Below are positions 5,323-17,170 of a DNA stretch of 64,000 bases, piece after piece. The stretch covers positions 930,001 to 994,000 of the forward strand of contig NZ_WAHS01000001.1 of assembly GCF_015714715.1 (NCBI RefSeq), given 5' to 3'. Both the position numbers and the translations under genes were made by a program. The stretch comes from Aestuariivirga litoralis (GTDB lineage: Bacteria; Pseudomonadota; Alphaproteobacteria; Rhizobiales; Aestuariivirgaceae). Positions within the stretch are counted from its first letter, which is position 1. The number at the start of each line of letters is the position of its first letter. A model generated the notes under the pieces. That model did not search any database, was not told where the DNA came from, and was given only the letters and a program-made list of their open reading frames with translations.

Positions 5323-7200
5323 TTATTTCTGCACCGTGAATTCAACACGGCGGTTCTTTGCCCGTGCACCATCGGAATGGGCGGGATCCAGCGGCTTGGT
5401 TTTGCCGTAGCCCACCGAGCTGAGCCTTGAGGCATCGATGCCGGCTTTTTCCAGCGCGTCGATCACCATCTTGGCGCGGCGCTCGCTGAGGCCCTGATTG
5501 TAGGATTCCGAGCCGATATAATCGGCATGGCCCGCCACCTGGATTTTCAGCTCGCCGCAGCGCGGATCCTTCATCAAGGCGGCATATTGATTCACGGCTT
5601 CGGGATAAGCGCCGCCTAAATCATCCTTGTTGAATTCGAAACGCACCGGGAAAACCGCAGCGATGCGGCCCAACACTTCATCACAATTGATCACGGCTGG
5701 TGGTGGCGGCGGGGTTGGCGCTTCAACCGCAACCGTTATGGCCTGCTTGCCAGCGGTGACGTTGGACTGGCCATCCGGCGTGACCACTTTGGCAATCACA
5801 TCATAAGCGCCATTCACCACAGGCTTGTCCGGGGTCAGCGTCCAGTGGCCAGCGCCATCGGAGGTGAGATCAGCATCCTTGCCCAGTTCATGGGTGACAC
5901 CATCAAGCTCAACCTGCAGCTTGTTGCCATTGCCTTCAGGCCATGTGCCCTTGACCACTGGTTTGTCGGAGGTGGAAGACGCGGTTTCTACGGTCGGGGC
6001 GGCAGGTACCGGCGCCGGCACAGGTTGCGCCACTGCAGGCGGAGCAATGTCGAATCCACCCTTGGTTTCAAGCGGCGTGCCGCCATCGTTCGGCGTTACA
6101 GTCACTGTTACGTCATAATGGCCGGGGGGCAGATCATCGCCAGCCTTTAATCTCCATTTACCGGAGGTGTCAGTCAGCAGGCTCAAGTCTTTGCCGAGTT
6201 CCGCCGTCTTGCCATTCACCGTCACCGACAATTGGGCACCGCTCATGGCGGGCCATTTGCCGGTCAAAGTGACAGGTTGTGTTTCAACAGGATCAAGGGT
6301 TGCGGCCGTTACCGGCTTGGGCGGCGATGGCGGAGGCGGAGGCGGAGGGGCTGCAATTTCAAAGCTGCCCTTGATTTCCTGGGCTTGGCCCTTGGCATCG
6401 GTATTGGTGACCGTCACATCATAATGGCCGGGTGCCAAATCTTCAGCAGGCTTGAGTGTCCATTTGCCATCGGTGCTGGAGAGGAGCGAGAAATCCCGGC
6501 CGAGCTGCGCGGTTTTGCCATTTACAGTGACAGAAAGCGTGCTGCCGGTGCCGACGGCCCATGTGCCGCTGAGCATGACCGGCTTGCCGGGTTCTGGTGT
6601 GATGGGGTTGAGCGTGGGGGCAGCGACTGGCTTTGGCGGCTCATTGACCACCAATTGCACCGGCTTTTCGGCAGCTGCAGTGCGCGAGCCATCACCCACG
6701 CTTGAGGCCACATCATAAGAGCCGGGCGGCAGCGGGCTTCCCAGTTTCAGCACCCAGTTGCCACCCGATGAGGTCAATTCCGGGTCTTTGCCCAGACTGT
6801 AGGTCTTGCCATTGACGGTGACATCCAGCGTCTTGGCGATTCCTTCCGGCCAAGTGCCCTTGATTTCGGGAGCAGCATCCGATTCGACTTTGGCTGGCTC
6901 TTCGGTCGGTGCAGCCAGCGGCGCAATCTGTACTTGTGCCATGTCAACAGTGCGTACACCATAAGTGGTGGCAATGGCTTCGGCGGCGGCTTTTGCGGCG
7001 TCCGGGCTGGGGGCGGTGCCGGCGATCGTTACGTCCCGGCCTTCAACTTTCACCTTGGCCCAATCACCCGCCACGAGGGCCGCGCGGTGCGAAATATCGC
7101 CTACAAGAGAATCTGTGGATAACCAGGCGGCCGCCACATAAGGCAGGCCCACGCCAACCACCGCATATTGAACCCATTTCACTGGCTGCCAAGAGAACAT
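5323..7200 (-). CDS. BON / Ig-like repeat / OmpA-family envelope protein
   Basis: A 625-residue protein anchored by one N-terminal hydrophobic helix (VQYAVVGVGLPYVAAAWL), followed by a BON-like domain (about residues 45-95), four Ig-like repeats separated by Pro/Ala linkers, and a C-terminal OmpA peptidoglycan-binding domain (about 510-625). Each repeat contains a variant of GTWP-VTVNGKT-LGKD-WTL-LPPG-YDV. The OmpA domain shows FEFNKDDL, VAGHADYIGSESYN, LSERRA and RVEFTV. The BON plus OmpA combination resembles the ArfA/OmpATb type. The ATG at 7200 is preferred over one 51 bases upstream because AAGGAAAAGG precedes it. It heads an operon with the small membrane peptide and HHH protein. A role in wall-to-membrane tethering is inferred from domains. 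Confidence 0.85.
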   Translation of the reverse strand: MFSWQPVKWVQYAVVGVGLPYVAAAWLSTDSLVGDISHRAALVAGDWAKVKVEGRDVTIAGTAPSPDAAKAAAEAIATTYGVRTVDMAQVQIAPLAAPTEEPAKVESDAAPEIKGTWPEGIAKTLDVTVNGKTYSLGKDPELTSSGGNWVLKLGSPLPPGSYDVASSVGDGSRTAAAEKPVQLVVNEPPKPVAAPTLNPITPEPGKPVMLSGTWAVGTGSTLSVTVNGKTAQLGRDFSLLSSTDGKWTLKPAEDLAPGHYDVTVTNTDAKGQAQEIKGSFEIAAPPPPPPPSPPKPVTAATLDPVETQPVTLTGKWPAMSGAQLSVTVNGKTAELGKDLSLLTDTSGKWRLKAGDDLPPGHYDVTVTVTPNDGGTPLETKGGFDIAPPAVAQPVPAPVPAAPTVETASSTSDKPVVKGTWPEGNGNKLQVELDGVTHELGKDADLTSDGAGHWTLTPDKPVVNGAYDVIAKVVTPDGQSNVTAGKQAITVAVEAPTPPPPPAVINCDEVLGRIAAVFPVRFEFNKDDLGGAYPEAVNQYAALMKDPRCGELKIQVAGHADYIGSESYNQGLSERRAKMVIDALEKAGIDASRLSSVGYGKTKPLDPAHSDGARAKNRRVEFTVQK

Positions 7201-7585
7201 CTTGCCTTTTCCTTGTGTTACGGGCTTGCCCCCGTTTCGATAAAAACCCAATATTAATAGATTCTTAACATGTGATTCTCGGGTTTTCCAGCGAAATCGC
7301 GGATGGCTGGGGCAAGCGCTTCAATTCAGCCGCATTTTTGCTTTGTATGACAGCAGAGATTCTGCCCGGGATATGAGTCTCTATATGCGCCGGTGCAGTG
7401 CACTGTGTCTCCCGTGCCACAGGCACCGGAATTATCCCCCGGCCCGGCCCTTTGCCGTTGACCCCCACGCCCTGATGACCCAAAACGACACCATTGCACG
7501 GGTGACTCGTGCATTGTCCGCCCACTCATTGCAGGGGACCGGGGGGGCATCATTCAAACTCCAATCTCTTTGGGAGAATAATCTA
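7201..7585. other. Divergent intergenic region between OmpA-like gene and porin gene
   Basis: This 385-base stretch contains no credible gene on either strand. It must hold the promoters for the leftward OmpA operon and the rightward porin gene. The only clear structure is an inverted repeat, TGCACG (7495-7500) and CGTGCA (7508-7513) separated by seven bases, lying about 75 bases before the porin ATG, which could be an operator or a leader hairpin. A GC-rich tract (7437-7470) precedes it. I cannot assign -35/-10 boxes with confidence. Confidence 0.5.
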
Positions 7586-8812
7586 ATGAAAGCTATGAAA
7601 CTTGCTCTCATCGGTACCGCTGCTCTGGCAGCCGTGTCGGTCAGCGCTCGCGCTGATGATCTGAACGCCCTCAAGGCCCAGATCGAAACGTTGAACGCTC
7701 GCGTTGCCTCGCTCGAAGCCACTCCTTCGGTTCCGGCTGGCTACCAGGCTGTGTCGTTCACCCGCAACGAAGCTGGTGAACATGTTATCTCGATCATGCC
7801 GACCGCTGATGCTCCTGCCGCTGCCACCATCGTGTGGTCGGGCTGGGTGCGCGCTGGTATCGTGGCCGGCCGTAACGTTGGCGACTATATGTCTGCCAGC
7901 AGCTGGCATCCGGTTGGTAGCTCCACCAACGCCAACTACTATGCTGGTAACGAATATGCTGCCGACATCCGCGCAGCTGCCGGCCTGAAGGTTGTTGCCA
8001 CCACCGACACCGCTGTGGGTGAAGTTGGCGTGTCGGTTGCCATGAAGGCAACTGGTTCGTCTGACATTTTCGCCAACGGCTCCAACTCGTCCTGGACCAA
8101 TAACGGCGGCAACCCGGCGTTCGTTTCTGACGGCTTCTACGGCTGGTGGAAAATGACCCCGAACCTGACCCTCAAGGGCGGCGTGTTCGGTTCGCTGTCG
8201 AAGAACGGCTATTCGTTCGACGCACAGTGCACCTGCGCCTATAACGACTATATCGGTGCTGTTTCGAAGGGCTCGCGCAGTTCGGATCCGGCTCAGGTCC
8301 AGATTGCTTATGCCGACGGCCCTCTGGGCATCGCCATCGCAGTTGAAGACGGCGACAATGACAGCGTCAACGCCAGCGCGTTCGGCGTAACCGGCAAGGC
8401 CACCTACAAGGGCGACACCTTCGGTGCCGACCTGTCGGGCGGCTATTGGGGCACGACGGACACCACGTCTGCTGAAGCTTCTTGGGTGATCGATGGTGGC
8501 ATCGGCGCCAAGCTGGGCATGTTCTCGGTTGGTGCTGCTCTCGGCATGGGCTCGGGCTTCAAAACGACCGACGACTTCACCAAGGTCAGCGCTTATGCAA
8601 TGGCTGCTCTGTCTGACAGCGCCGGCATTGAATTGGGCGTAGGCCACGTGTGGAACACGCAGCAGACCAACACGGATCGTACCGTGTTTGACGCTGCTCT
8701 GTACTACACTCCGGTCAAGCAGCTCACGGTTGGCCTGGAAGGCAGCTACGTTTCGGGTGGCCAGTTCGACGGCACCTACGTTGCTGCTCTCTACACGACC
8801 TTCAAGTTCTAA
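7586..8812 (+). CDS. Outer-membrane porin with N-terminal coiled coil
   Basis: A 408-residue exported beta-barrel protein. It starts at an ATG with GGGAGA nine bases upstream, has a clear signal peptide (MKAMKLALIGTAALAAVSVS, cut after ARA), then a short heptad segment (LNALKAQIETLNARVASLEA) that could trimerise, and then a Gly/Ser/Thr/aromatic-rich barrel of amphipathic strands ending in the C-terminal phenylalanine (TTFKF) that the BAM machinery recognises. It lacks the usual Rhizobiales Porin_2 opening motif, so I call it porin-like by architecture rather than by a specific family. The codon choice is restricted (GCT, GGT, GTT, AAC favoured), as in abundant proteins. A strong UUCG-loop terminator ends the transcript. 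Confidence 0.85.
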   Translation: MKAMKLALIGTAALAAVSVSARADDLNALKAQIETLNARVASLEATPSVPAGYQAVSFTRNEAGEHVISIMPTADAPAAATIVWSGWVRAGIVAGRNVGDYMSASSWHPVGSSTNANYYAGNEYAADIRAAAGLKVVATTDTAVGEVGVSVAMKATGSSDIFANGSNSSWTNNGGNPAFVSDGFYGWWKMTPNLTLKGGVFGSLSKNGYSFDAQCTCAYNDYIGAVSKGSRSSDPAQVQIAYADGPLGIAIAVEDGDNDSVNASAFGVTGKATYKGDTFGADLSGGYWGTTDTTSAEASWVIDGGIGAKLGMFSVGAALGMGSGFKTTDDFTKVSAYAMAALSDSAGIELGVGHVWNTQQTNTDRTVFDAALYYTPVKQLTVGLEGSYVSGGQFDGTYVAALYTTFKF

Positions 8813-8836
8813 TCTGACTTAAAGTCTGATTGACGG

Positions 8837-8867
8837 ACGGCCCGCTTCGGCGGGCCGTTTTGTTTTT
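8837..8867 (+). terminator. Intrinsic terminator of the porin gene
   Basis: A perfect 9-bp stem (8837-8845 with 8850-8858) closes a TTCG tetraloop and is followed by TTTTGTTTTT. This is a textbook strong terminator 24 bases after the porin stop, so the sulfotransferase genes downstream probably have their own promoter. Confidence 0.95.
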
Positions 8868-8921: not shown

Positions 8922-10553
8922 ATGCTGATCGCTGAAAACGCCCTTTCCAACAACTCCTATGACCAAGACCTCGCTCGGTTGGTGCATTCCCTCATGGGTG
9001 CGACCTCTGTCACTCAGCTTTCTCAAATAAAGGTATTTCACGCCAAATATCCGAATGAAGCTCACGCAAATTACCTGCTTGCGGACGCCATGGCCGCAAA
9101 CGGCCAGGAATTGATGGCAATTCCCTTCGCCCAGAAGGCTGTACATACGGGCAAGTTTCATCCTGACTATGCTGCGTTACTCATCACCATCTACACCCAG
9201 TTCTTTTTCCTGGAACAAATTGATCAATTGCTGCCGCTCGTTCTTGCCACAGGAAAAAGCTCTGCTGCACAGGATCAGGCGATAGGCAATTACTTCAGCA
9301 AGCTCGGTCGCCCAGAGAGTGCTGTGCCATATCTCAAACGTGCTTACGCAACACATGTAGAACCGATCGCAAAAAGGGGCGCTATCGGATTGGTCGTCAC
9401 CTGTTTGCGCGACTCAGGTCAGAATGATGAAGCCAGGGCGCTGCTTCAAGAGCTGCTGGCGGGGGAGGATACACGAGCGGAAGCGCTATCCGACCTCGCT
9501 CAGATAGCCCGTTCGGATGACGTTCCTGCGATTGAAGAGCAGATTGAATCACTTCTCGAAGAAAAAGATGCAGATGTATCTTTGACACCTCAAAGACTCG
9601 AAATTCTTCATCTCCAGCTTGGGAATCTCAAAGAAAAAAAAGGGCAGCATGATGCTGCCTTTGAAAACTGGCGCACGTCCCGGAGTTTTGTGAACAGAAC
9701 TTATAACGCCATAGCTACAGAACGCGGGATCAAGGACACGAAAGCTTTCTACAAACCAGATTTGTTCGATAGAACAGCACCTTATGCGAGTTTGGATGCT
9801 TCGCTGGTGTTCGTCATGGGCATGCCGCGTTCCGGTACAACGTTAACTGCGCAAATTCTATCGGCTCATCCGGATGGGGCGAGCGCTGGCGAACTGGCTC
9901 GGTTGGCGGCAGAAGCCAATGTATTCATGAGCAGGTATCACGTGGCAGGGGGGGTAAAGCAACTCTTGCTCGACGCCGAAAGTGGGGAGATTGCCGCTCG
10001 CACAGATGAATTCATCAAACTCGCCAAGCTGGTGGCAGGCAAGCCCGCCGCGAAGATAGTCGACAAAACGCCAACGCAGTTTCTTTCCGCCGGCTACATT
10101 CATCTCATTTTTCCCAATGCGAAGTTTATAAACGTAGAACGTCATCCGGCTGACGTGTTCATTTCAACTTATCAAAACAACTTCCAGCGCAGCTTCGAAT
10201 TTGCGTTCGATCAGAAAGACTTTGCCCACTTTTTTTTGCAACGCCATGAAATCCTGAAACATTGGAGAAGACTTTTCCCCGATAACATACTTGACGTTTC
10301 ATACGAGGCGTTGACCCGCAACCCGGAAGAGCAAGTGCGGCGCATTCTGGATTTCCTTGAGCTTGACTGGGATCCAGCCTGCCTAAAATTCTTTGAGCGT
10401 TCTTCCACCGTGCGCACCTTCAGCCGCGACCAGGTCCGCTCTGCGATCAACACCAAGTCCGTCGCCCGGTGGCGCAATTACGAAAAGCACCTCTCACCGT
10501 TGTTTGAATCGCTCGAAAAGGCCGGTTATTCTTACACTGAAACAGTGGTTTAA
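8922..10553 (+). CDS. TPR-sulfotransferase, first of three tandem paralogues
   Basis: A 543-residue two-part protein: about 250 residues of helical TPR-like repeats, then a PAPS-dependent sulfotransferase domain. The 5'-phosphosulfate loop is VFVMGMPRSGTTLTAQIL near residue 300; the 3'-phosphate binding segment is NVERHPADVFISTYQNN; DKTPTQFLSAGYIHL lies between. The protein ends with a tail (VRTFSRDQVR, RWRNYEKHL, AGYSY) shared with its neighbours. The family transfers sulfate from PAPS to an acceptor; TPR-fused members resemble protein-modifying sulfotransferases, but the acceptor here is unknown. The ATG at 8922 is chosen because it aligns with the start of the second copy; a TTG 27 bases upstream is also in frame. 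This copy is visibly AT-richer than the other two. Confidence 0.9.
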   Translation: MLIAENALSNNSYDQDLARLVHSLMGATSVTQLSQIKVFHAKYPNEAHANYLLADAMAANGQELMAIPFAQKAVHTGKFHPDYAALLITIYTQFFFLEQIDQLLPLVLATGKSSAAQDQAIGNYFSKLGRPESAVPYLKRAYATHVEPIAKRGAIGLVVTCLRDSGQNDEARALLQELLAGEDTRAEALSDLAQIARSDDVPAIEEQIESLLEEKDADVSLTPQRLEILHLQLGNLKEKKGQHDAAFENWRTSRSFVNRTYNAIATERGIKDTKAFYKPDLFDRTAPYASLDASLVFVMGMPRSGTTLTAQILSAHPDGASAGELARLAAEANVFMSRYHVAGGVKQLLLDAESGEIAARTDEFIKLAKLVAGKPAAKIVDKTPTQFLSAGYIHLIFPNAKFINVERHPADVFISTYQNNFQRSFEFAFDQKDFAHFFLQRHEILKHWRRLFPDNILDVSYEALTRNPEEQVRRILDFLELDWDPACLKFFERSSTVRTFSRDQVRSAINTKSVARWRNYEKHLSPLFESLEKAGYSYTETVV

Positions 10554-10639
10554 TCGGCATAACCCTTGACTTGCGATTGGCTGGGTTGAAAATCCGGCTT
10601 CGATCTTTACCTTCGAACCCAAGGCCACTAAATGGCCTT

Positions 10640-12289
10640 ATGCCATTGCTTCCAGCTTCCAAATTCACAGGTCCTTCTGACCGCGACCGGCAGCAGCTTC
10701 TTTTCTCGCTCATGGGCAAAGAGCCGGGTGCCCAACTGACATTGATCAAAGCCTTCCTGGGACGCTTTCCCAACGATATCCATGCGAACTATCTCATGGC
10801 CGACACCATGATGGCCGTGGGCCACGAATTGAACGCCATTCCATTCGCCCAGAGAGCAGTACAGCTCGGCCGCTTTGAACCCGACCATGTGGCGCTGCTG
10901 CTCAACCTCTATTGCAAGTTTCACTTTCTTGAGCAGGTGGATCGCCTGTTGCCCCAGGTCTTGGCCAGCGGCAAAAGTTCCGCCGAACAGGACCGAGCGA
11001 TCGGTAACTATTACAGCCGGATTGCCAAAGCAGAACTGGCTCTGCCCTATCTCAAAAGGGCTTGCGACACATTTGTTGACGTGCGCTCCAGGCATCGAAC
11101 CCTCGGCCTCCTTCTGGAATGCTTGCGAGATGCAAACCACAATGATGAGGCCAGAGCACTGATTGAGAAACAGGCTTCATCGGCAGATACACGCTCCTGG
11201 GCGCTGGGTGAGCTTGCTCAAATTGCCAGGCCGGATGAAACCGTTTCGCTGATCGAGCAGATCGAAACCCAACTTTTGGTGCCTGATGACAAAGACGATC
11301 CCCGGACGGCCAGCAGCAGAGAAGCGCTTTACCTCCAACTGGGCAACCTGAAAGCCCGGCAAGGCCGGCATGATGAGGCTTTTGAAGATTGGAAAGCGTC
11401 TCGTGCTCTCGTAAACCTGACATACAGTGCAGCTGCGAACGAGTACACCGTCAAGGAAACCAAATCTTTCTACCAGAAGAGCCTGTTTGAACGCACCCTG
11501 CCCTATGCAAATGCCGATGCATCGCTGGTGTTTGTGGTGGGCATGCCACGATCAGGAACCACGCTTGCGGCACAGATTCTCGCGGCACATCCACAAGCGG
11601 CCAGCGCCGGAGAATTGGTGCGGCTATCCGTCGAGGCGAAGTTTTTTACCGGCAGATATCATGTGGCGGGCGGGCTGAAACAGCTCCTTGCAGACGCGCA
11701 GGCCGGAGCCATCGCCAGCCGCACCGAAGATTTTCTGAAACTTGCCCGGCTTGTTGCCGGAAAGCCTGCCGCACGCCTCGTTGACAAAACGCCACTGCAA
11801 TTCCAGTCGGCGGGATATATCCATATGTGCTTCCCGCATGCGCGGTTCATCAACATGGAGCGCCATCCGGCCGATATTTTCATTTCCACCTACCAAAATG
11901 GATTTTCACAGGAATTCGGTTTTGCCTTTGATCAGGAGGCCTTTGCGCATTTCTTCCTCAAACGCCACGAAATCCTGAAATACTGGAGAAGCCTGTTTCC
12001 GGAAAAGATTTTGGACGTAGGGTATGAATCCCTCACCGCATCGCCGGACCTGCAGGTGCGGCGTATTCTGGACTTCCTCGCGCTTGACTGGGACCCCGCC
12101 TGCCTCAAATTCTTCGAGCATTCTTCGACCGTGCGCACGTTCAGCCGCGATCAGGTGCGTTCCGCGATCAACACAAAGTCAGTCGGCCGTTGGCGCAATT
12201 ATGAAAAACATCTCGGGCCGTTGTTTGAAGCTCTCGACAAAGCCGGCTATTCCTATCCTGAAAATTCTGCCGCGAACGGGGCCAATTAG
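10640..12289 (+). CDS. TPR-sulfotransferase, second of three tandem paralogues
   Basis: A 549-residue protein with the same layout as its left neighbour: TPR-like helices to about residue 260, then a PAPS sulfotransferase domain with GMPRSGTTLAAQILAAHPQ near residue 300, DKTPLQFQSAGYIHM and ERHPADIFISTYQNG. It is the closest relative of the first copy: long blocks match throughout, including YHVAGGLKQLL and EILKYWRSLFPEKILDVGYE. DNA differences fall mostly at third codon positions, which points to selection on the protein rather than recent duplication or gene conversion. It lies 86 bases after copy one and its TAG directly abuts the ATG of copy three. An in-frame TTG at 10571 would add 23 residues with no match in copy one. 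Confidence 0.9.
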   Translation: MPLLPASKFTGPSDRDRQQLLFSLMGKEPGAQLTLIKAFLGRFPNDIHANYLMADTMMAVGHELNAIPFAQRAVQLGRFEPDHVALLLNLYCKFHFLEQVDRLLPQVLASGKSSAEQDRAIGNYYSRIAKAELALPYLKRACDTFVDVRSRHRTLGLLLECLRDANHNDEARALIEKQASSADTRSWALGELAQIARPDETVSLIEQIETQLLVPDDKDDPRTASSREALYLQLGNLKARQGRHDEAFEDWKASRALVNLTYSAAANEYTVKETKSFYQKSLFERTLPYANADASLVFVVGMPRSGTTLAAQILAAHPQAASAGELVRLSVEAKFFTGRYHVAGGLKQLLADAQAGAIASRTEDFLKLARLVAGKPAARLVDKTPLQFQSAGYIHMCFPHARFINMERHPADIFISTYQNGFSQEFGFAFDQEAFAHFFLKRHEILKYWRSLFPEKILDVGYESLTASPDLQVRRILDFLALDWDPACLKFFEHSSTVRTFSRDQVRSAINTKSVGRWRNYEKHLGPLFEALDKAGYSYPENSAANGAN

Positions 12290-13909
12290 ATGAACAAGAA
12301 GGCTGCCCCCCTGCTCCAAGGAAATTACAGCGAAGATCGCGACAAGGTCCTCTCCTACCAGAAGCGCGGGCGGCTTGAACCGGCGCTGGCCCAGGCATTT
12401 TTGAGCAAGTATCCCGAGGATGTGCAGGCCAACGTTATTGTTGGTGAAATGTTGCTGACAGCCGGTGAAAACTTCCAGGCCATTGCATTCTATGAAAGAG
12501 CCGTGACGGGCAGCGGTTTTGAACCAGGCTATGTGGATATCCTGACGCGGCTCTATCTGGATCACCAGTTCTATGAAAACGCTGACAAGATGTTGCGCGA
12601 AGCCATTCGGCGCCATCCTCAATCCGCCACGGTTTTCGGAAATCTCGGAGAATTCTATTCAGTTCTGGGACGATCAGACCTCGCCATCAGCCACTACCGG
12701 GACGCACTCCGATTGTCACACGACAACGGGTATCGCCAGATCGTGAAGCGAGGCCTGGTTGAGGTGCTCCGGGCCTCCAACAGGAAAGATGAGGCTTTAA
12801 GCGTGCTCGCCGAGCTACAATCAGCACCTGGCCACAAGGCCTACAATGCTTTTACCACAGCGGATTTGACGCGGGCCAATCTGGAAAGCCCCGTGGTGCA
12901 AGACATCTTGAATTTGATTGATACATCGGCAGGTACGATCCCCCCGGGAGATCGTACGGCGCTTCTGCTTGGATATGGCCGCGCCGCCGAAAAGTCCAAA
13001 AATCATGACCTGGCCATGGAAAGCTGGCAGAAGGCCCGTGCCCTTAATCCGGCGCCATACGATGCCGGCGAAATCGAGAGCATCGTGGCAAAAAGTGTGG
13101 AGCTTTACACCAAACCCTTGTTTGACAAGACACGCGGCTTTGCCAACCGGTCGCATGCTCCCGTTTTTGTATTTGGCATGCCCCGCTCCGGCACCACACT
13201 TTGCGAGCAGATCCTTGATGCCCATCCCGATTGTGTTGGTGTTGGCGAGTTGGGCCGCATGGTGGTGCGTGGTGTTCCCTTCATCAAAAAATATGGTGTG
13301 CCAAGCGGGCCCGGAGAAATCTTCGCGAACGCCTTGAAGGGCAAACTTGTGGCGCGCGGGCAGGAATTCCTGACGGTTTCAAGTCTGGTCGCCAAACGTC
13401 CTGCAAAACTGGTTGTCGACAAGACTCCGACACAATTTCTGGCGGCTGGCTATATCCATCTGTGTTTGCCGTATGCGAAATTTATCAACCTAATGCGCCA
13501 TCCCGCCGATGTGTTCATTTCAACTTATCAAAATCACTTCACCGATACGTTCAGCTATGCGTTCAACCAGGTTAGCTTTGCGCATTTCTACCTGCACCGT
13601 GCGAAAATTCTGAAACATTGGCGTGCTGTTTTCGGCGAGCTTATTCTGGATCTTTCTTATGAAGAACTTGTCTCAGACCCCGAACCCCAGGTTCGGCGGA
13701 TGCTGGGCTTCCTCGGCTTGGACTGGGATCCGGCTTGCCTGCGTTTCCACGAATCCGGAAATGCCGTGCGCACCTTCAGCCGTGACCAGGTGCGGTCGGG
13801 CATCAACAACAAGTCCGTCGGCCGCTGGCGGAACTATGAAAAGCATCTTGGGCCGCTGTTTGAGGCATTAGGGAAAGCGGGTTATTCCTATCCTGAATCA
13901 GAGATTTAG
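12290..13909 (+). CDS. TPR-sulfotransferase, third of three tandem paralogues
   Basis: A 539-residue member of the same family, more diverged in the TPR half. The repeat region (YEDVQANVIVGEMLLTAGE-like helices, then VFGNLGEFYSVLGRSDLAISHY, a canonical TPR helix pair) is followed by GMPRSGTTLCEQILDAHPD near residue 295, DKTPTQFLAAGYIHL and MRHPADVFISTYQNH. The C-terminal tail VRTFSRDQVRSGINNKSVGR is almost unchanged from the other copies. The ATG follows the stop of copy two with no spacer (TAGATG), implying coupled translation. The three copies keep every recognisable PAPS contact, so all are probably active, perhaps on different acceptors chosen by the TPR part; that division is inferred. 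Confidence 0.9.
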   Translation: MNKKAAPLLQGNYSEDRDKVLSYQKRGRLEPALAQAFLSKYPEDVQANVIVGEMLLTAGENFQAIAFYERAVTGSGFEPGYVDILTRLYLDHQFYENADKMLREAIRRHPQSATVFGNLGEFYSVLGRSDLAISHYRDALRLSHDNGYRQIVKRGLVEVLRASNRKDEALSVLAELQSAPGHKAYNAFTTADLTRANLESPVVQDILNLIDTSAGTIPPGDRTALLLGYGRAAEKSKNHDLAMESWQKARALNPAPYDAGEIESIVAKSVELYTKPLFDKTRGFANRSHAPVFVFGMPRSGTTLCEQILDAHPDCVGVGELGRMVVRGVPFIKKYGVPSGPGEIFANALKGKLVARGQEFLTVSSLVAKRPAKLVVDKTPTQFLAAGYIHLCLPYAKFINLMRHPADVFISTYQNHFTDTFSYAFNQVSFAHFYLHRAKILKHWRAVFGELILDLSYEELVSDPEPQVRRMLGFLGLDWDPACLRFHESGNAVRTFSRDQVRSGINNKSVGRWRNYEKHLGPLFEALGKAGYSYPESEI

Positions 13910-14031: not shown

Positions 14032-14865
14032 TTGAATCGCTTTTTTCCCCTTACACTTATGCTCTCTGCTCTGCTGCTTTCGGCCTGCGTGGCTGACCAG
14101 GCGGTGGATATGGAAAGCCGTCCGATCGCACTTGACCAGAATGCTGAGCCTGCGGGTGCGGCCGGCGTCCAGAGTGCTGCTTCCGTGGCCAGCATGCTTC
14201 CTGCCACCGGCCCGACCTATGTGACCTTGACCGTGGCGCGGCAAAACGGCGGTTCGATGCCTTCGCCCAAGGATGGCACGACGGCAATCACCTCAGGCTC
14301 TGGCTTTGTGGTTTCGCCAGATGGCTTTGTGGTCACTGCGGCGCATGTGGCGGTCAACAAGGGCAATGAAATTTCAGCACGCGCTGCCAATGGGCGCATC
14401 TATAGCGGCACGGTGGTGGGCATCTATCCCGGCAATGATATGGCGCTGGTGAAGCTGCGTTCGTTCAATGGGCGCGATGTTGTACCGGCCTCGCCGGCCT
14501 GCGTGGCCGTAGGCTCGCCCATCTACACGCTGGGTAAGCCGCATGGCGCGGGTGATACCGCGCGCATCGGGACACTGCAGGCGATGCATTTCGGCCGTGC
14601 GGTGGCTTATGGCAATTTCGGCTATCCCGATGCCATGGTGCTGCATATGGGGACCCAGCGCGGCGAAAGCGGCGGTCCTGTGTTCAACGCCCAAGGCCAA
14701 TTGATCGGCATGGTGGTTTCAACCCTGTCGGATGAATCAGGGAATTCGATCACCATGGCGCATGCCATTCCGGCCAATACGATTGGCAAGTTCATCTGCA
14801 GCCAAGGCTCCTGCAGTTCGAACTGGCAAGCCATCGCCGCCAAGCCGGTTGACAGCTGCGGTTGA
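14032..14865 (+). CDS. Trypsin-like serine protease lipoprotein
   Basis: A 277-residue exported protease. The N-terminus (NRFFPLTLMLSALLLSAC) has a lipobox whose cysteine would be lipidated, placing the protein on the inner or outer membrane facing the periplasm. A chymotrypsin fold follows with a full catalytic triad: His105 in VTAAHVA, Asp136 in GNDMALVKL and Ser213 in RGESGGPVF. There is no PDZ domain, unlike DegP. The start is a TTG; the first ATG, 27 bases later, would remove the positive charges needed by the signal peptide. It lies 122 bases after the third sulfotransferase on the same strand, so it may belong to that cluster, but no shared promoter is proved. Confidence 0.87.
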   Translation: MNRFFPLTLMLSALLLSACVADQAVDMESRPIALDQNAEPAGAAGVQSAASVASMLPATGPTYVTLTVARQNGGSMPSPKDGTTAITSGSGFVVSPDGFVVTAAHVAVNKGNEISARAANGRIYSGTVVGIYPGNDMALVKLRSFNGRDVVPASPACVAVGSPIYTLGKPHGAGDTARIGTLQAMHFGRAVAYGNFGYPDAMVLHMGTQRGESGGPVFNAQGQLIGMVVSTLSDESGNSITMAHAIPANTIGKFICSQGSCSSNWQAIAAKPVDSCG

Positions 14866-14879
14866 CGCCGCGCTGAACC

Positions 14880-15851
14880 CTAAGGGATCAGAACTGTAGC
14901 GCCCGTGGTGCGCCGCGCCGCCAGGTCTTCATGCGCTTTGGCCGCATCAGCAAGCTTGTAGCGCTGGTTGATCTGGATCTTCACCTTGCCGGATTTGACG
15001 ACATTGACCAGATCACGCGCCGTGGCCTGGAAATCGGCATCGCTGGCCACATAGGTGCCCAAAGTGGGCCGAGTGACATAGAGCGAACCTTTGCCCGCCA
15101 ATATGCCGAGATTGAAAGCAGATACAGCACCTGAAGCGTTGCCGAAGGACACCAGCAGGCCCAGCGGGCTCAAGCAGTCGAGCGAGACATTGAATGTGGC
15201 CTGCCCCACGCCGTCATAGACAACCGGCACGCCCTTGCCCTTGGTGATTTCCTTCACACGGGCCACGACATCTTCGGTGCTGGAATTGATCACATGGGCA
15301 TAGCCATGCTTCCTGGCGATGGCGACTTTCTCGTCGGAGCCTACCGTACCGATGGCCTTCACGCCCAGCGCCTTGGCCCATTGGCCAAAGATCAAGCCCA
15401 CGCCGCCCGCAGCCGCGTGGAACAGCACGGTTTGGCCCTTCTTGACCTTGTAAGTGGCGCGCAGCAGGTAACGTGTGGTCATGCCCTTCAGCATCATGCC
15501 GGCGGCCACTTCGTCGCTGATCGCTTTTGGCAGTTTGACGAGCCGGTTGGCGGGAAAATTGCGCGCCTCCTGATAGGCGCCCAGAGCGCCGGTACCATAA
15601 GCCACCCTGTCACCCACCTTCAAGGCCTTTACACCCTTGCCAAGCTTGGTGACCACGCCTGCAGCCTCGTTGCCAAGGCCGGAGGGCAATGGGCTGGGAT
15701 AGAGGCCACTGCGGTAATAGGTATCGACGAAATTGAGGCCAATGGCCGTGTGGCGGAGTTGTACTTCGCCTGTGCCAGGCTCTTCCAAATTCACATCCTG
15801 CAGCTGTAAAACTTCTGGACCGCCTGTCCGTTCAAACCGAATTGCCTTCAT
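14880..15851 (-). CDS. NADPH:quinone oxidoreductase (zeta-crystallin type MDR)
   Basis: A 323-residue zinc-free medium-chain dehydrogenase/reductase that reduces quinones with NADPH. It has the QOR opening (MKAIRFERTGGPEVLQLQDV), the GNEAAGVV motif, NFVDTYYRSGLYP, and the nucleotide-binding loop HAAAGGVGLIFGQWAKALG. Cysteine ligands for structural zinc are absent, as expected. The ATG at 15851 is preferred over an in-frame GTG six bases upstream because AAGAGG lies seven bases before it. It is convergent with the protease lipoprotein gene (14-base gap) and divergent from an aminotransferase gene. E. coli QorA is the best-known relative; the physiological substrate here is not evident. Confidence 0.92.
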   Translation of the reverse strand: MKAIRFERTGGPEVLQLQDVNLEEPGTGEVQLRHTAIGLNFVDTYYRSGLYPSPLPSGLGNEAAGVVTKLGKGVKALKVGDRVAYGTGALGAYQEARNFPANRLVKLPKAISDEVAAGMMLKGMTTRYLLRATYKVKKGQTVLFHAAAGGVGLIFGQWAKALGVKAIGTVGSDEKVAIARKHGYAHVINSSTEDVVARVKEITKGKGVPVVYDGVGQATFNVSLDCLSPLGLLVSFGNASGAVSAFNLGILAGKGSLYVTRPTLGTYVASDADFQATARDLVNVVKSGKVKIQINQRYKLADAAKAHEDLAARRTTGATVLIP

Positions 15852-15997
15852 GCCCACACCTCTTGTTGTGCCAGATCATCGGATGCCGCAGCGCCGTGGT
15901 CAAGCGATGGGCCTTACAGGCTTCCATGTCATTTTGGAACTATGCAGAGTGGTCTGTTCTGTCTTAAGCAGTTCCATCATCTTCAAGGACTTCATCC

Positions 15998-17170
15998 ATG
16001 GTCGTTACCGTTTCGCCGCGTCTCTCCAGTGTCGAGTTTCCACCGATCGCGGAGGCGTTGAGCTGGGTCAACGGCCGGCAAAGCAACCGGGAACTTCTCA
16101 ATCTCTGCCAGGCCGTGCCCAGCTATCCGCCAGCGGAGACGCTGCAAGATGAATTCGCGAGGCTGGTACATTTGCCGGGCATGGGTGGATATACCGAAAT
16201 CCTTGGCATTACAGAGCTCCGCGAGGCTTTCGCCAGCCATCTCGCATCGAGTTATGCTGCACGCGTGGCCAGCAAGGACGTGGGCATCACCACCGGGTGC
16301 AATCAGGCCTTTGCGGCGGCCGTGATGGCGATTGCCGAGCCTGGCGACAATATCATCATGCCAGCGCCCTATTACTTCAATCATCAAATGTGGCTGGGCA
16401 TGCTGGGTGTGGCCATCACCCCGATTTCTGCTTTTTCACCGGGGGGCGCATGGCCGTCGGCTGCCGATGCAAAGGCGGCAATCACGCCGAAGACCCGCGC
16501 CATCATGCTGTGCACCCCCAACAACCCTTCAGGTGCGATCTATCCGGCATCGGTGCTAAAGGAATTTTACGACGTGGCGCGCGAGGCCGACATCGCGCTT
16601 ATCATCGATGAGACCTACAAGGATTTCCGCCCTGACGCTACACCTGCCCATGCGTTATTGAATGAGCCTGACTGGCGGGACCGTCTGATCCAGCTGTTTT
16701 CCTTCTCGAAGATCTATGCACTGGCTGGATATCGCTTGGGGGCCATGGTTGCTGGGGCGGAAGTCATGCATCAGGCCACCAAGGTTCTCGACACAATGAC
16801 CATTTGCCCTCCGCAGGTTTCGCAGCGCGGCGTATTGTTTGCGCTAAAGGAACTGGACGAGTGGAAGCAAGGCAAGAAGGCTCTGATGGCGGAGCGCCTT
16901 GCGGCAATGCGTGCAGCCTTCACCAAACCCGGATTGAAATATGAACTGATCTCCAGCGGGGCCTATTTCGCCTATGTCAAACATCCGTTTGAGGGCGAAG
17001 GTTCTCGTGTGGTGGCCAAGCGGCTGGCGCAGGAACATGACGTTCTGTGCCTGCCGGGTGCGATGTTTGGAGAAGGACAGGAAGATTATTTGCGTTTTGC
17101 CTTTGCCAATGTGGATAAAGACAAAATGTCCTTGCTGGCCGAACGCCTGATCGAGAGCCAGGGTGCCTAA
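15998..17170 (+). CDS. PLP-dependent class I/II aminotransferase
   Basis: A 390-residue fold-type I aminotransferase. Visible motifs are GYTEILGITELREAFA, TTGCNQAFAAAVMAI (phosphate cup), TPNNPSGAIY with the substrate-carboxylate asparagine, IIDETYKDF with the pyridine-nitrogen aspartate, and the Schiff-base lysine in FSFSKIYALAGYRLGA. An arginine near the C-terminus (YLRFAFANVD) would bind the substrate carboxylate. These mark an aspartate/alanine/aromatic-type enzyme, but sequence alone does not decide the amino donor. AAGGA is well placed before the ATG. It stands alone: the next gene is convergent with only three bases between stops, and the quinone oxidoreductase gene upstream is divergent. 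Confidence 0.92.
   Translation: MVVTVSPRLSSVEFPPIAEALSWVNGRQSNRELLNLCQAVPSYPPAETLQDEFARLVHLPGMGGYTEILGITELREAFASHLASSYAARVASKDVGITTGCNQAFAAAVMAIAEPGDNIIMPAPYYFNHQMWLGMLGVAITPISAFSPGGAWPSAADAKAAITPKTRAIMLCTPNNPSGAIYPASVLKEFYDVAREADIALIIDETYKDFRPDATPAHALLNEPDWRDRLIQLFSFSKIYALAGYRLGAMVAGAEVMHQATKVLDTMTICPPQVSQRGVLFALKELDEWKQGKKALMAERLAAMRAAFTKPGLKYELISSGAYFAYVKHPFEGEGSRVVAKRLAQEHDVLCLPGAMFGEGQEDYLRFAFANVDKDKMSLLAERLIESQGA

Follow-up and report, generated by a model that had tools for sequence, protein, structure and literature searches.

Three tandem TPR-sulfotransferase genes beside a porin gene in Aestuariivirga litoralis: a candidate system for sulfating outer-membrane proteins before export

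We analyzed a 64,000-nucleotide stretch of the Aestuariivirga litoralis genome (assembly GCF_015714715.1, contig NZ_WAHS01000001.1, positions 930,001 to 994,000, forward strand; hereafter the window), focusing on three adjacent forward-strand genes that encode an N-terminal tetratricopeptide repeat (TPR) region fused to a sulfotransferase (ST) domain of the type using 3'-phosphoadenosine-5'-phosphosulfate (PAPS), and on the porin gene upstream of them. ST1 (8922..10553, 543 aa; PF13469, Sulfotransfer_3, 3e-41) and ST3 (12290..13909, 539 aa; PF13469 1e-36, TPR_16 1e-14) carried TPR matches above the Pfam cut-off, whereas the TPR-type N-terminus of ST2 (10640..12289, 549 aa; PF13469 2e-36) remained sub-threshold; the start of ST2 is the in-frame ATG at 10640, the longest open reading frame (ORF) opening at a TTG at 10571. 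The PF13469 scores of ST1, ST2 and ST3 were 142, 126 and 127 bits against a Pfam cut-off of 27, and these were the sole strong matches in the genome. All three proteins contained the motifs GMPRSGTT, GEL, VDKTP, RHPAD, STYQN and TFSRDQVR, so that the 5' phosphosulfate loop (GMPRSGTT) and the 3' phosphate-binding segment (RHPADxFIS) are present in every copy. An array of three long multi-domain ORFs that all retain the family motifs intact is no chance pattern.

The stop codon of ST2 abuts the start codon of ST3 (TAG-ATG, 12287-12292); ST1 and ST2 are separated by 86 bp and are not translationally coupled. Pairwise identity was 63% for ST1-ST2, 41% for ST1-ST3 and 43% for ST2-ST3, with the divergence of ST3 lying mostly in its TPR half (11–33% identity per 40-residue block, compared with 28–85% in the sulfotransferase half). 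The original prediction of three adjacent TPR-PAPS sulfotransferase genes with complete loops, coupling between the second and third copies and a TPR half that is the most diverged part of the third was thus borne out, the sub-threshold TPR match of ST2 aside. ST1 and ST2 are much more alike in DNA over their final ~60 codons (10300-10553 and 12030-12289), where one 40-codon block reached 86%, compared with about 62% elsewhere. Gene conversion or strong constraint could account for this. Outside the window, the genome holds a fourth Sulfotransfer_3 match, a weak one (41 bits, 625-aa frame, G000:C1:1281912-1282535, locus L179).

To characterize the enzymes, we examined an AlphaFold2 model of ST1 (predicted local distance difference test score, pLDDT, 94.8; predicted template-modelling score 0.91), in which TPR helices span residues about 10-290 and are followed by an alpha/beta sulfotransferase domain at about 294-533. 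In a Foldseek search of the PDB, the top 13 matches were chains of tyrosylprotein sulfotransferase (TPST), including 8w5z and 3ap3, with template-modelling scores to the target of 0.60–0.72, followed by polyketide sulfotransferases and then by consensus TPR and OGT TPR structures. A sequence search agreed (E 1e-18 to 1e-13 for TPST), so that eukaryotic TPST (TPST1/2 and tick TPST) is the nearest solved relative of the trio on both counts. Across 48 homologues, R303, E324, K382, R407 and S415 were invariant or nearly so. The PAPS-binding Arg and Ser of TPST are conserved in the trio. A conserved Glu also lies near the TPST catalytic position, which is Glu99 in human TPST2: in the sequence alignment, E324 falls there or one residue off, depending on gap placement, and is a candidate catalytic base. 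Unlike TPSTs, which are Golgi type II membrane proteins without TPRs, the trio lacks a membrane anchor and begins with a TPR superhelix; no signal peptide was seen on the enzymes, and no N-terminal membrane segment, the ST1 model opening directly with TPR helices. The genome holds one APS kinase match (231 bits, 669-aa frame), and PAPS can thus be made.

The gene immediately upstream of ST1 (7586..8812, forward strand) encodes a 408-aa protein with a signal peptide, and model, fold search and synteny point to a porin. It has no Pfam match and no sequence relative in the PDB. Its AlphaFold2 model (pLDDT 75.7) shows an N-terminal helix or coiled coil followed by a series of long strands, and the top Foldseek matches were the porin of Rh. 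blastica (7prn, E 1e-11) and OmpF. With its signal peptide, 16-strand-type beta-barrel and C-terminal aromatic residue (the sequence ends in FKF), the protein has the features of a general trimeric porin, and it is our proposed acceptor. Candidate tyrosines lie in a low-confidence loop at about 100-121 (Y101, Y118 and Y119, with Y124 adjoining E123) and in a loop at about 205-225 (Y209, Y219 and Y222).

To assess the conservation of the locus, we compared it across related genomes of the genus, in many of which this porin family adjoins TPR-sulfotransferases. The framework kept in the genus runs OmpA-porin-[ST]-HtrA-[ST]-QOR-AAT. In the window, its left end is an OmpA/BON/Ig-like protein gene divergent from the porin and constant as the left flank (5323..7251, reverse strand; PF00691, PF19077). 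Downstream of ST3 lie a gene for a predicted trypsin-2/HtrA-like lipoprotein protease (14032..14865, forward strand; PF13365 2e-23, lipobox LLLSAC), an NADPH:quinone reductase gene (QOR; 14880..15857, reverse strand; NF008024, 413 bits) and an aminotransferase gene (AAT; 15998..17170, forward strand; NF005732, 498 bits). The HtrA-like lipoprotein gene is a constant neighbor of the porin with or without sulfotransferases. Sulfotransferases occupy two positions. The first, between porin and HtrA and in the porin's direction, holds one to three copies (the window and genomes G007, G008, G020 and G032); the second, between HtrA and QOR and in the opposite direction, holds one copy, and both are occupied in G007 and G032. 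In G025, a sulfotransferase lies beside HtrA at a contig end. In one further contig (L052, G002:C30, 103-2295), porin and HtrA-like protease form a single 730-aa frame, either a fusion or a sequencing artefact.

The two positions matched two sulfotransferase groups on the tree. ST1, ST2, ST3 and the single G020 copy fell into one clade, from which the trio is read as a local expansion. The sulfotransferases are accessory at this locus: relatives carry zero, one or two copies at the same spot, with a copy number of 0–3 overall, and a conserved three-copy cluster was rejected. Neither were the copies scattered without conserved neighbors or stripped of their PAPS loops, since neighbors are conserved and loops intact. 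The single clade and the variable copy number are also what would be seen if one general protein sulfotransferase had merely been duplicated, the trio being a selfish or neutral tandem expansion without distinct functions. However, every copy retains the full catalytic motifs despite 37–59% amino-acid divergence, which argues for maintained use, and we consider such an expansion very unlikely.

To determine whether the association with outer-membrane proteins (OMPs) extends beyond the genus, we compared genes near a sulfotransferase (within two genes) with far genes (four or more positions away). An OMP-like signature was defined from sequence only as at least 250 aa with a C-terminal F or W, a stricter version adding a signal peptide; this signature misses TonB receptors ending in Tyr. 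A scan of named genomes yielded 79 TPR-sulfotransferase loci. Among 190 near genes, the Pfam tally was Porin_2 13, Autotransporter 8, OMP_b-brl 7 and TonB receptor 5, and none of the four ranked among the 25 commonest families in the 127 far genes. Outside Mesorhizobium, the signature was found in 24/168 near genes compared with 4/246 far genes (P = 7e-7), and in 16 compared with 0 when a signal peptide was required. Within Mesorhizobium, where the TPR-sulfotransferases, one or two per locus, face a Porin_2 gene, the counts were 27/106 near and 3/253 far, the loci being close relatives. At 14 annotated plasmid loci from different genera, an exported or outer-membrane protein was encoded close by in nine and about three genes off in two more. 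These neighbors were autotransporters in Pacificitalea, Thalassospira and Kluyvera (three genes off in Azospirillum), TonB receptors in Pseudoalteromonas, Novosphingobium and Asticcacaulis (three genes off in Komagataeibacter), a porin in Cereibacter, a giant cadherin adhesin with its type I exporter in Comamonas and, in Sulfitobacter, a calcium-binding protein alongside genes for a type I exporter. The remaining 3/14, in Novosphingobium EMRT-2, Roseibium and Hirschia, had no such neighbor.

Additionally, we searched for Sulfotransfer_3 in 143 genomes sampled evenly across the class and compared 40 long (TPR-type) members, for the most part a single one from each genus, with 19 short TPR-less members. 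Near the TPR members, the OMP-like signature occurred in 14/158 genes compared with 6/254 far genes (P = 0.004), and with a signal peptide in 9/158 compared with 1/254 (P = 0.001). Near the TPR-less members, it occurred in 3/73 genes, and with a signal peptide in 0/73. Pfam families near the TPR members included TonB receptors, autotransporters and porins, and two further TonB receptor neighbors were confirmed despite their Tyr end (L182 and L189). In contrast, the TPR-less members were surrounded by glycosyltransferases and other biosynthetic enzymes. The enrichment is found beside TPR members and not beside TPR-less ones; therefore, the outer-membrane link goes with the TPR fusion.

These comparisons also bear on the alternative that the trio sulfates a surface glycan or glycolipid, such as lipopolysaccharide or exopolysaccharide, with the TPR region as a scaffold. 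The same fold occurs in NodST/NoeE-type and heparan sulfotransferases; the ST1 model gave fold matches to heparan sulfate 3-O-sulfotransferase, and the trio matched the NoeE profile weakly. The nodulation sulfotransferases NodH and NoeE resemble the trio in their PAPS loops; they differ in having glycolipid substrates and no TPR, and membership of the trio in this family was rejected at NF052394 scores of 37–47 bits against a cut-off of 500. TPST matches rank above those to glycan enzymes, the flanks examined (OmpA, porin, HtrA-like, QOR and AAT) contained no glycan genes, and glycosyltransferases surround the TPR-less sulfotransferases rather than the TPR-type ones. We consider a glycan or glycolipid acceptor improbable. 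As originally predicted, the trio looks protein-modifying on sequence and model, because its best solved-structure matches by sequence and fold are to TPST and because the TPR fusion separates it from the TPR-less enzymes found among glycan genes.

Taking these results together, we propose that ST1-ST3 carry out TPR-guided, PAPS-dependent sulfation of the adjacent porin precursor in the cytoplasm before export, a proposal to which we assign an even chance. The TPR superhelix would capture the unfolded precursor ahead of Sec export. Sulfate would be transferred by the TPST-like C-terminal domain onto side chains bearing a hydroxyl group, with Tyr the likeliest acceptor residue and Ser or Thr possible ones. 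We infer this order of events because the enzymes lack a visible signal peptide and PAPS is cytoplasmic, so that modification must precede export. The sulfated residues would end up in porin loops, where the pore mouth would gain extra negative charge, and each of the three diverged copies may act on its own site or on its own porin conformer. In a wider reading, the target of many TPR-sulfotransferases may be the product of a neighboring gene for an outer-membrane or secreted surface protein. The original prediction held that the acceptor is not obviously encoded nearby; this was not supported, given a porin conserved beside the enzymes and the recurrence of outer-membrane proteins near TPR-sulfotransferases elsewhere. 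A co-occurring short acceptor gene, suggested at the same time, was not found in the gaps between ORFs examined at the cluster.

Two known systems offer partial parallels to porin sulfation by the trio. RaxST of Xanthomonas is likewise a bacterial PAPS-dependent protein sulfotransferase whose exported product is encoded beside it, and its peptide RaxX was, according to a 2019 paper, the only documented case of bacterial tyrosine sulfation (PMC6637879). However, RaxX is a peptide of 60 residues that leaves through a type I system, whereas the trio has TPRs and adjoins a porin; the flanks examined held neither a RaxX-type peptide gene nor type I secretion genes. FlmG, a cytoplasmic flagellin O-glycosyltransferase, shares the modular arrangement of N-terminal TPR and C-terminal transferase, and in the cytoplasm, ahead of export, its TPR domain binds flagellin and confers specificity (PMC7591256). 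FlmG transfers pseudaminic acid rather than sulfate, has an unrelated catalytic domain and acts on flagellin; our working model of TPR capture draws on it because it is a tested precedent for a TPR-guided design.

Several observations weigh against the porin as acceptor. Between porin and ST1 lies a strong intrinsic-terminator-like hairpin (8835..8860, forward strand; 11-pair GC-rich stem, loop of 4, T-rich tail; a pattern match only), and this predicted terminator suggests that porin and enzymes are under separate control; no obvious ribosome site was found upstream of ST1. Ten genomes have the framework, porin included, without any sulfotransferase at the locus. The adjacency within the genus is one inherited locus rather than many independent events and therefore shows no function by itself: adjacent genes point to a functional link without proving an enzyme-acceptor pair. 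Tyr content was higher in sulfotransferase-linked porins of the genus than in others (5.09 vs 4.18%, P = 0.0045, uncorrected), a weak enrichment that follows clades, with Thr and Ala also differing, and no Tyr-sulfation motif of the acidic-Tyr kind was found to recur in the linked porins. In other orders, a porin next to a TPR-sulfotransferase sometimes contains little Tyr, so that Ser or Thr could be acceptors. In the class sample, an OMP-like gene lay within two genes at just 11/40 TPR loci, about a quarter.

Some of these points would also suit enzymes that sulfate another protein encoded elsewhere, such as a different OMP, an adhesin or a flagellin, the porin being merely syntenic. The locus is kept in the genus whether or not sulfotransferases are present, about three quarters of the sampled TPR-sulfotransferases have no OMP-like neighbor, and genes for the flagellin assembly protein FlaF lie near some of them (L181-L199, class sample), hinting that flagellins may be acceptors as well. 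However, the enrichment of the same neighbor classes recurs across genera with different porin families and different sulfotransferase clades, and we regard a distant acceptor as rather unlikely.

Extending porin sulfation by the trio to the wider family, TPR-sulfotransferases may form a widespread cytoplasmic pathway that sulfates porins, TonB receptors, autotransporters and type I-secreted adhesins ahead of their export. The TPR half would pick the neighbor-encoded acceptor, and the window trio would be an expanded case; we advance this tentatively, as plausible though somewhat doubtful. The architecture itself is known: NCBI applies the name 'tetratricopeptide repeat-containing sulfotransferase family protein' to many proteins, with no acceptor named. 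In the open-access literature (most subscription journals lay outside the search), no report tied TPR-sulfotransferases to porins, TonB receptors or autotransporters, and bacterial protein sulfation was covered by RaxST papers only. What appears new here is the proposed union of TPST-like chemistry and FlmG-like targeting with a porin as acceptor, and such protein sulfation appears undescribed. If the acceptors are neighbor-encoded outer-membrane proteins, finding them reduces to a simple experiment, and the permanent charges that sulfate would give to porins and receptors would matter for permeability, for the adsorption of phages and for interactions at the cell surface.

Three plasmid loci showed further gene arrangements. 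In Comamonas endophytica (L169), a single-strand run comprises genes for a giant cadherin adhesin, a TPR-sulfotransferase, TolC, an ABC exporter and HlyD, and looks like an operon for a sulfated, type I-secreted adhesin. In Asticcacaulis (L172), a TonB receptor gene is followed by sulfotransferase-2, Asp/Asn beta-hydroxylase and TPR-sulfotransferase genes, possibly providing two different modifications of one receptor. The annotated order on Cereibacter pORIO5 (L174) is porin, TPR-sulfotransferase, YggS-like protein and L,D-transpeptidase; the families Porin_4, Ala_racemase_N and YkuD recur in several of loci L208-L219, and this order appears to represent a second conserved locus tied to a porin.

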